From Chloroflexota bacterium (GTDB lineage Bacteria > Chloroflexota > UBA11872): a stretch of DNA of 64,000 nt. The translations under genes and the position numbers were made by a program. Below, piece after piece: positions 6,365 through 8,659 of this stretch (its first letter is position 1; each line of letters opens with the position of its first letter). Where the stretch lies: assembly GCA_028874175.1 (NCBI GenBank), contig JAPPLN010000008.1, forward strand, positions 1 to 64,000. The letters are read 5' to 3'. The notes beneath the pieces are model-generated. The model had not been told where the DNA came from. It saw only the letters and a list, made by a program, of their open reading frames with translations, and made no database searches.

Positions 6365-6710
6365 CGCGCGGCCGGGTTCTTAGCCACCCTTGGCAGTCCA
6401 CGGCAGGGGCGGTTCGCGGACCGCCCCTGCGCGGCGCGACGTCTCTCGTTCATGGTGTGTGGCTTCCCGGCATGCGCGCCCCTGGTGGCGATCTTGACCG
6501 AACTCGACGATGGTTGCCCGGCCCCCACCCCAATCCCGAGCCCAGTCTTGACAGCACGGCGGTTCGTTGCGTATACGTTGGGTAGGCGCTCTAGTGGGAG
6601 CCCCCGAGTCCGCGACAAGGGTTTAACCCGCCCCCGCAACCTCCCAGCTTCTCGGCACGACTCTTTTCGGCCTGATCACGCGGACAGCAGGCCACTTGAA
6701 AGGAGTGCGT
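6365..6710. other. Intergenic region with terminator-like hairpin
   Basis: 346 bases between the solute-binding protein stop and the likely start of the SAICAR synthase. It holds a strong hairpin at 6403-6430 and, at its end, a clear ribosome binding site AAAGGAG (6699-6705) for the ATG at 6711. Short open frames crossing it show no protein-like pattern. Confidence 0.5.
6403..6430 (+). terminator. Perfect 11-bp hairpin after the solute-binding protein gene
   Basis: GCAGGGGCGGT (6403-6413) pairs without mismatch with ACCGCCCCTGC (6420-6430) around a six-base loop, 38 bases after the stop codon. There is no T-tract, so intrinsic termination is uncertain. It may protect the mRNA 3' end or be a dispersed palindromic repeat. 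Confidence 0.5.
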
Positions 6711-7985
6711 ATGTGCCCCCGCAGTCTCCCTCTGCGTCCGAGCCTGGAACACCTTCAGAAACAGGCCAAGGCTCTACTTAAGGCTGTGAATGAGGGCGAT
6801 CGAGACGCCGCGCTGAAATTCCGAGCAGCACGCCCCGCGTTGGCCCAGGCATCCGCCGCCGAATTCGCCACGGCCAAGCTATCCCTGCGCGACGCTCAAG
6901 CCGCAATCGCTCGCGAGTACGGCTTCGAGCGGTGGTCCGACCTCAAGAAGCGCGTTACCGAGCTGTCCCAGCGTGCCCTCGCAGAGGTCGAGACAGTGGC
7001 GAACGCCATTTACACCCCAGAGGGGTACACGGAGCGAATTCGACAAGTGCTCGGCAACTGCCTCATTGAGACAAATCTCGCCCAAGGTGAGAAGTTCGAA
7101 GCCAAAGTACGGGACCGATACGATCTCGGGGACCGGATGGTGCTGATTACCACCGACCGACAGAGCGCCTTCGATCGGGTGCTGGCCGCGATCCCCTTCA
7201 AAGGGCAGGTCCTCAACATGACGAGCGCATGGTGGTTTGAGCGGACCCGCCATATTGTGCCGAATCAGGTCCTATCAGTCCCCGATCCTAACGTCACGAT
7301 TGCCAAGAGATGCACCGTCTTTCCGATCGAGTTTGTGATGCGTGGATATATCACCGGAACCACGAGCACCGCCCTCTGGACGGTCTACCAACGTGGTGAG
7401 CGTCACTACTGTGGCATCGATTTGCCCGACGGGCTGGTGAAGAACCAGAAGCTGCCGACGAACTACCTCACGCCGACCACCAAGGCAGAGGATCACGACC
7501 GTCCGATCAGCCCTGATGAGATCGTGTCCGAAGGTTGGATGACGTCCGATGAATGGGAGCGTTGCAGCCGCATCGCGCAGGAACTTTTTGCTTTCGGTCA
7601 AGCCGAGGCAGCGAAGCGTGGCCTTATTCTCGTCGATACCAAGTATGAGATGGGCCGTGACGAGAACGGTGAGATCCTCCTGATCGACGAGATTCACACC
7701 CCTGACTCCAGTCGCTATTGGATCGCCGACACTTATCAGCAGCGCATGCGGGAGGGACAGGAACCCGACAACGTCGACAAGGAATTCCTGCGGCTCTGGT
7801 TCACGGCGAACTGTGATCCCTACGAGGATGAGGTCCTCCCAGCAGCGCCGGACGACCTTGTCATCGAGCTCTCACGACGCTACATCTACCTCTACGAGAA
7901 GATCACCGGTCGCACTTTCGAGTTTCCAGGGGCGGACCAACCCATAGAGACGCGTTTGGCCAGCAACGTTCAAGGAGTCACATGA
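6711..7985 (+). CDS. purC: SAICAR synthase with an unusual N-terminal helical domain
   Basis: Phosphoribosylaminoimidazole-succinocarboxamide synthase condenses CAIR with aspartate using ATP in purine synthesis. Residues about 95-424 match the longer eukaryote/actinobacteria-like form: DRMVLITTDRQSAFDRVLA near the ATP site, FPIEFVMRGYITGTTSTALW, and LILVDTKYEMG followed by DEIHTPDSSRYW. The first 85 residues form a separate helical module (LEHLQKQAKALLKAV ... LRDAQAAIAREYGFERWSDLKK), which I know as the N-terminal cap of many ankyrin-type bacterial proteins, not of PurC. ATG at 6711 is preceded by AAAGGAG; a TTG at 6696 is possible but lies upstream of that site. Codon use looks less GC-rich than neighbours and no other pur gene is adjacent. 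Confidence 0.85.
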   Translation: MCPRSLPLRPSLEHLQKQAKALLKAVNEGDRDAALKFRAARPALAQASAAEFATAKLSLRDAQAAIAREYGFERWSDLKKRVTELSQRALAEVETVANAIYTPEGYTERIRQVLGNCLIETNLAQGEKFEAKVRDRYDLGDRMVLITTDRQSAFDRVLAAIPFKGQVLNMTSAWWFERTRHIVPNQVLSVPDPNVTIAKRCTVFPIEFVMRGYITGTTSTALWTVYQRGERHYCGIDLPDGLVKNQKLPTNYLTPTTKAEDHDRPISPDEIVSEGWMTSDEWERCSRIAQELFAFGQAEAAKRGLILVDTKYEMGRDENGEILLIDEIHTPDSSRYWIADTYQQRMREGQEPDNVDKEFLRLWFTANCDPYEDEVLPAAPDDLVIELSRRYIYLYEKITGRTFEFPGADQPIETRLASNVQGVT

Positions 7986-8014: not shown

Positions 8015-8659
8015 ATGAAGAAATACATCCTCTTTGACCACGATGGGGTCCTGGTGGATACCGAATTCTGGTACTACAAAGCCGGAGAGCGCGCCCTGGC
8101 TGACATCGGATTTACCCTGGATAGAGACCAATACCTCCGAGACATGATCCAGGGAATGGCCACCTGGGCCCAAGCCGTAGCGGCAGGTGTTGACGAACAG
8201 ACCATCAGCAGGCAGCGTGAGGTTCGTAATGTGTACTACCAGGAATACCTTATAACAGAAGACATCGAGATCGATGGTGTCCTGGAAACGCTAGACCTAC
8301 TCGCAGATGAGTACCGGATGGGCATCATTACTACCTCCAAACCAGATGACTTCGCCTTGATACACGAAAATCGATCCATCCTGGACTATATGGAATTCTA
8401 CTTGGCAAGGGATGACTACGCGCGAGCTAAACCACATCCCGAACCCTACCTGAAAGGACTCCAGCGCTTTGGAGCAACTGCCGCTGAATCCGTGGTTGTA
8501 GAAGACTCGGCGAGAGGGTTGACGTCGGCAGTAGCCGCGGGTATCGATTGCATCGTGGTTGCCAACGAGTTCACCGCATCTCACGATTTTTCCAAAGCAA
8601 CTGCCAAGGTCGCTACGTTCAGGGAATTGCCATCTACTATAAAGAGCTTAACAACGTAG
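8015..8659 (+). CDS. HAD-superfamily phosphatase, beta-phosphoglucomutase-like
   Basis: A 214-residue haloacid dehalogenase-type hydrolase. Motif I is DHDGVLVDTE (nucleophile D8 and acid D10), motif II IITTSK, the motif III lysine lies in AKPHPEP, and motif IV is VVVEDSARG. The helical cap between motifs I and II matches the phosphoglucomutase/phosphatase subfamily, which acts on small sugar phosphates. It starts 29 bases after purC and is probably co-transcribed. Base composition differs from the neighbourhood: bases 8221-8280 contain 25 G/C of 60, against 42 of 60 at 15661-15720, which suggests acquisition by transfer. The substrate is unknown. Confidence 0.85.
   Translation: MKKYILFDHDGVLVDTEFWYYKAGERALADIGFTLDRDQYLRDMIQGMATWAQAVAAGVDEQTISRQREVRNVYYQEYLITEDIEIDGVLETLDLLADEYRMGIITTSKPDDFALIHENRSILDYMEFYLARDDYARAKPHPEPYLKGLQRFGATAAESVVVEDSARGLTSAVAAGIDCIVVANEFTASHDFSKATAKVATFRELPSTIKSLTT

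Follow-up and report, generated by a model that had tools for sequence, protein, structure and literature searches.

Apparent capture of a structured RNA leader and a helical protein module by a SAICAR synthase paralogue in Chloroflexota

The fused purC2 gene and its genomic context

In the window analysed here, a 64,000-nt stretch of a Chloroflexota bacterium (assembly GCA_028874175.1, contig JAPPLN010000008.1), positions 6711-7982 of the forward strand form a single unbroken open reading frame (ORF) of 424 residues that begins with ATG at 6711, ends with a stop codon at 7983-7985, and is preceded by a Shine-Dalgarno sequence (AAAGGAG, 6699-6705) 5 nt 5' of the ATG. We observe directly that this ORF joins, in one reading frame, a helical module of ~85 residues (residues 1-85, 6711-6965) to a SAICAR synthase domain (residues 98-424 with the stop codon, 7002-7985) through a short linker (6966-7001). 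Pfam SAICAR_synt (PF01259) covers residues 130-374 (1e-64, 219 bits against a cut-off of 20), and NF009251 covers residues 119-421 (431 bits against a cut-off of 371), placing the enzyme in the NF009251/PRK12607 type. An AlphaFold2 model of the fused protein, based on 26 sequences, has a mean pLDDT of 86.6, with the catalytic domain predicted well and low values at residues 91-97 of the linker; Foldseek matched the predicted catalytic part to yeast SAICAR synthase 2cnq (E 2e-23, TM 0.83 on the target). The motifs KVRD, RGYITG, TPTTKAE..HD, DTKYEMG, and DE..TPDSSR are kept in alignment with 3r9r and 1obg and are near-invariant across the family. The catalytic part is under stronger purifying selection (dN/dS about 0.12) than the module (~0.45), and the linker is roughly neutral (mean 1.3, median 0.9). 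Given its family, motifs, and selection, the fused enzyme probably still makes SAICAR. Unfused orthologues start at the position equivalent to residue 97 in the fused protein (M-ENAIYTPEGY), and the codon of this old enzyme start is ATG in most fused copies, GTG in the window, and lost in two copies (L039 and L054).

A canonical purC is present elsewhere in the genome, on contig C19, within a complete operon (guaA-purD-purB-purC-purQ-purL-purF-purM-purN-purH) in which the gene names other than purC were assigned by reading translations. Because the canonical gene sits in this operon, the fused gene is an extra purC copy rather than a modified canonical PurC. An earlier note on this DNA had remarked that the gene is separated from other pur genes and had proposed looking for a second, canonical purC; the operon on C19 bears out the first and supplies the second. 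We refer to the fused gene, which stands alone outside any purine operon, as purC2. In Legionella, Marinimicrobia, and Spirochaetes, purC genes of the same type are members of a pur operon (purL-purM-purQ-purC-...-purF-purD-purN), which argues that this is a genuine type of SAICAR synthase. In Dehalococcoidia, purC2, whether fused or unfused, stands by itself with a conserved HAD hydrolase gene downstream; in the window this partner, encoding a HAD-family hydrolase, occupies 8015-8659 on the forward strand, and the two genes are a possible functional pair. Compared with the NF009251/PRK12607 type at large, the fused purC2 has the same score above the curated cut-off, 2cnq fold, and signature motifs, but differs in its N-terminal module and RNA leader, in having a HAD hydrolase gene as its neighbour rather than a place in a pur operon, and in being a second copy in its genome.

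The N-terminal helical module

Residues ~6-85 share homology with the N-terminal ends of ankyrin-repeat proteins, for example those of Ancylobacter (WP_244451017.1), Variovorax, and Methylosinus, in agreement with the earlier note, which had likened the first 85 residues to a module of bacterial ankyrin-repeat proteins. The consensus spans ~85 residues (LPxRPxLExLKKQAKxLLxxxRxGDxxAxxRF...LxDAQLVIAREYGFxSWPxLK), and helices are predicted at residues 12-27, 31-40, 49-53, 59-69, and 75-95. The C-terminal partners of the module are diverse and include ankyrin-repeat, HEAT-repeat, carboxypeptidase-regulatory-like, VOC, DUF1835-like, and purC2 domains, among others; annotated examples are an "ankyrin repeat domain-containing protein" in Ancylobacter and a "VOC family protein" in Phyllobacterium. 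The module belongs to no Pfam or NCBIfam family; the best matches, to short stretches (Glyoxalase_8, 6.5e-4, in 3/14 members; PRK05973, 0.005), stay below the cut-off wherever one was given. A search of IMG/VR gave no sign of a viral origin. No significant PDB match was found by sequence or by structure, and RNA binding is therefore not indicated by the fold. We noticed that, with the first 12 codons set aside, the module region (6711-7001) varies by only ~10-16% at third codon positions between members of the genus, a lower figure than that for synonymous divergence in the catalytic part; this could reflect either recombination or constraint at the nucleotide level.

Distribution and evolution of the fusion

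The fusion occurs in ten of the 13 genus genomes, that of the window included: it is full-length at 82-94% identity in seven others and is truncated where the contig ends in G008 and G010, whereas the remaining three genomes, of which one is a single contig, do not carry it. The ~170 nt 5' of the gene are also conserved across the ten copies, with 96% identity over the last 108 nt; beyond about -170 the upstream DNA does not align. An artefact of assembly or annotation joining two genes might be suspected, since the genomes are draft metagenome assemblies, but the identical join, leader, and Shine-Dalgarno sequence recur in independently assembled genomes, which rules out such an artefact for practical purposes. 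The fusion proposed in the earlier note is thus real, resting on the intact ORF, the Pfam and NF009251 matches, and the same join in relatives; absence from all relatives would have spoken against it, and nine other genus genomes carry it. As a separate observation, metagenome-assembled genome (MAG) G006 holds an unfused purC2 (L048, contig C31) besides a fused purC2 and the canonical purC, which is either a genuine third copy or a contaminant of the MAG.

In a tree of the catalytic parts, three changes between the fused and unfused states are required, and well-supported branches force two of them; the fused group L036-L039 nests with an unfused copy (L050). Leader and module are nonetheless alike in all fused copies despite these separate catalytic lineages. 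Between the two main groups, synonymous divergence in the module (0.17-0.39) is comparable to or lower than in pur operon genes (0.17-0.51), and it is higher in the catalytic part (0.37-0.66). The simplest reading would be that the 5' cassette has recombined with different purC2 copies or that the catalytic part has been replaced. Leader and module together appear to form a 5' cassette that has been captured by a purC paralogue.

A structured RNA leader that pairs with the Shine-Dalgarno sequence

Directly 5' of the fused ORF, positions ~6588-6710 hold a leader with three hairpins (P0, P1, and P3), a helix (P2), and a pseudoknot. It follows a candidate sigma-70-like promoter (TTGACA-N18-TATACG, 6548-6577, forward strand), found by eye and conserved in most of the ten genus copies; a consensus promoter scan did not call these positions because the -10 element lacks its final T. 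The leader begins with P0 (GCTC/GAGC, loop TAGTGG; 6588-6601), and its core, comprising P1, P2, P3, and the pseudoknot, extends over 6603-6710 (103 bits with covariance model R1, described below). The first pseudoknot strand (GTCCGC, 6608-6613) pairs with GCGGAC (6680-6685), which lies within the loop of P3 (GGCCTG/CAGGCC, 6669-6693), while P1 (GGGT/ACCC) lies at 6619-6629. The 5' strand of P2, an anti-Shine-Dalgarno arm (6659-6668), pairs with 6698-6707, such that P2 covers and buries the Shine-Dalgarno sequence directly before the start codon.

This base-pairing can be read directly from the pattern of changes among leaders. In an alignment of 41 leaders (A7), the 26 pairs are 93.7% paired and 24 of them show double changes, counts that lean towards the structure for P1-P3 because A7, like alignment A4, was fitted to these helices. 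All four pairs of P1 (99.4% of cells paired) and all ten pairs of P2 are doubly changed, and P3 likewise covaries. The covariation score of 0.511 compares with 0.202 for shuffled alignments (0/500) and with at most 0.118 when the structure is slid. The distal half of P2 occurs as TTTC/GAAA, GTGC/GCAC, and other complementary pairs, swaps that would be hard to explain other than by selection for pairing. The pseudoknot was not entered as base pairs in the covariance models, and both it and P0 are free of pair-fitting bias. On A7 the pseudoknot is 99.6% paired with four of its six pairs doubly changed, all six positions pair in 43/44 leaders (shuffles: mean 25.6, maximum 32), and some leaders have rewritten it wholly (GGCAGC/GCTGCC, GTTCGC/GCGAAC). 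P0 forms a Watson-Crick hairpin of at least 4 bp in 36/39 non-redundant leaders (shuffles: mean 10.6, maximum 19). Between the first pseudoknot strand and P1 stands an unpaired GG.AA, whose conservation across phyla is 95-100%. Taken alone, the window leader folds no better than its shuffles in a free-energy calculation that is blind to pseudoknots (z -0.24).

A search of Rfam 15 (4227 families) with the window and 20 other loci gave no leader match at E ≤ 1 or 2 (E ≤ 1 for the core in the window). A known riboswitch or leader was considered and set aside, the only Rfam matches being to unrelated group II intron and miRNA models. A text search for an ankyrin-linked structured RNA found none in a body of papers that excludes the report of 224 motifs (10.1093/nar/gkx699). 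Its strong covariation, the lack of an Rfam family, and the absence of any description in the searchable papers suggest that the leader represents a widespread class of cis-regulatory RNA not described before.

Leader and module are linked across phyla

Homologous leaders were seen upstream of other module genes by reading the DNA, and a DNA search placed the 3' part of the window leader before a module gene with a different C-terminus in another genus (G040:C357). We show that the leader directly precedes module genes with other C-termini in Chloroflexota, Verrucomicrobiota, Pseudomonadota, and Gemmatimonadota, a pairing of homologous elements that is observed directly in each of these phyla. 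Two covariance models were built, R1 from 12 aligned leaders and R2 from 35. With R1, 18/18 matches of at least 47 bits in 400 Chloroflexota genomes directly precede module ORFs, one of them (G038:C253) not being among the leaders used for the model. In records never used for building R1, matches likewise stand before module ORFs in Gemmatirosa (61 bits), Opitutaceae (56), Burkholderia (55), Methylosinus (53), Variovorax (44), and Ancylobacter (42, the leader being on plasmids); leaders outside R1 scored 40-63 bits with it. The same holds for all nine matches of at least 40 bits in 289 Verrucomicrobiota genomes and for all 13 R2 matches in 369 Pseudomonadota genomes. Overall, every leader match of at least 39 bits precedes a module ORF.

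Conversely, each of the 13 Verrucomicrobiota modules (E ≤ 1e-8) has a leader, seven recognised by genome scan and six by applying R2 to the loci (24-41 bits); where a locus was known beforehand to contain a module, matches of 24-32 bits were accepted by position. Outside the genus, eight of 13 module places in Chloroflexota have a leader and five have no recognisable one, as is also the case for the VOC protein on a Phyllobacterium plasmid, and the module can therefore exist without a leader. Most leader matches below 34 bits fall inside ORFs of unrelated kinds and were put down to chance; the exceptions are L217, where a module ORF follows, L189, which may be real, and the leader-like L213 described below.

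Several further loci deserve mention. One verrucomicrobial genome (G426) contains eight leader-module genes (L208, L214-L217, L248, L250, and L251), whose C-termini are of several kinds. By eye, the leader and module precede DUF1835-like proteins at L210, L215, L232, L234, and L237; the protein at L210 matched no Pfam family at E ≤ 0.01. At L213, a leader-like RNA (1501-1613, 31 bits, pseudoknot GTCTGC/GCAGAC) has no module behind it and is possibly a remnant or a chance match. In genome G169, module genes (L169/L167 and L168) with a C-terminus that by eye resembles aminoglycoside phosphotransferases are preceded by GACCC..GGGTC, which may be a very divergent leader missed by the models.

Proposed mechanism and alternative explanations

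We consider it likely that purC2 has come under the control of a captured leader-module cassette and that the P2/pseudoknot fold gates translation, with the module as the leading candidate for the ligand. The extra purC2 would have taken over a transferable 5' cassette consisting of the leader RNA and the ~85-residue module. The leader would fold into P0, P1, P2, and P3, with the pseudoknot joining the P3 loop to the 5' strand; in this folded state P2 would pair with the Shine-Dalgarno sequence and keep translation of the fused enzyme off or low, and opening or changing the fold would raise it. The signal presumably acts on the leader RNA, and the module would be an autogenous repressor and its most likely ligand. 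Gating of translation is well supported by the conserved pairing, control by the fold being counted among our inferences. For the ligand, we infer that the module itself is the likeliest candidate, since what the RNA follows from gene to gene is the module, whatever the C-terminal domain does. The earlier note had suspected regulation from the protein fusion, and regulation does find support, by way of an RNA leader that lies upstream of the gene and accompanies the module in several phyla; nothing in our analysis supports the moonlighting role that was also raised.

The main rival to autogenous binding by the module is a small-molecule riboswitch. The leader would then sense a metabolite or ion to which the module and its partners respond, and the linkage would reflect shared physiology. 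A pseudoknot beside a buried Shine-Dalgarno sequence is the usual layout of riboswitches, and GG.AA is conserved to the degree expected for a binding pocket. A riboswitch typically governs several gene families that are unrelated but belong to one pathway, whereas the partners here (ankyrin, HEAT, VOC, DUF1835-like, and purC2) share no common pathway, and no match of at least 39 bits stands before a gene without the module; we regard such a riboswitch as unlikely, while taking it seriously. Less probable still is that leader and module are a recombination-prone 5' end behind which the purC2 coding region came to lie by chance, with the module a passenger of little function in this protein. Its weak constraint, the roughly neutral linker, and the start codon retained at the old enzyme start in most copies would fit such a passenger. 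Against it, leader, Shine-Dalgarno pairing, and module are kept in 10/10 fused copies across separate catalytic lineages, none of these ten copies keeps the module without the leader, the third positions of the module change little, and L039 and L054 no longer have the old start. We therefore favour control of purC2 by the captured cassette.

Like the leaders of autogenous ribosomal-protein operons and of the thrS type, the purC2 leader is structured, hides the Shine-Dalgarno sequence, and is physically linked to the gene that it would control; it occurs only before module ORFs, as judged by the matches of at least 39 bits, a sign of linkage rather than of binding. It differs from them in being tied to a domain with unrelated C-termini and in matching no Rfam family. 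Occlusion of the ribosome-binding site by a pseudoknot and hairpin is shared with the preQ1-class translational riboswitches, from which the leader differs in sequence, in helices, in the absence of an Rfam match, and in the lack of a common pathway among the controlled genes. The terminal reassortment of type III effectors offers a parallel in gene layout, in that a 5' regulatory region is reused, together with an N-terminal part, before unrelated C-termini; the unit here is instead a structured RNA with a helical module and is found in several phyla.

Implications

The fused purC2 is a case in which a regulatory RNA and a protein domain appear to have been acquired jointly by a metabolic enzyme. 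Because the leader goes with a protein domain that has no name, rather than with a pathway, the binding partner of the RNA and the function of the module can be tested together, and the function of the module bears on many proteins annotated as "ankyrin repeat". One tentative possibility, which we rate above the riboswitch and well below the capture itself, is that the module is an RNA-binding domain for its own leader, forming a portable autoregulatory cassette in at least four phyla. If this is true, any protein joined behind the cassette, here a purine enzyme, would come under translational control that senses its own product.
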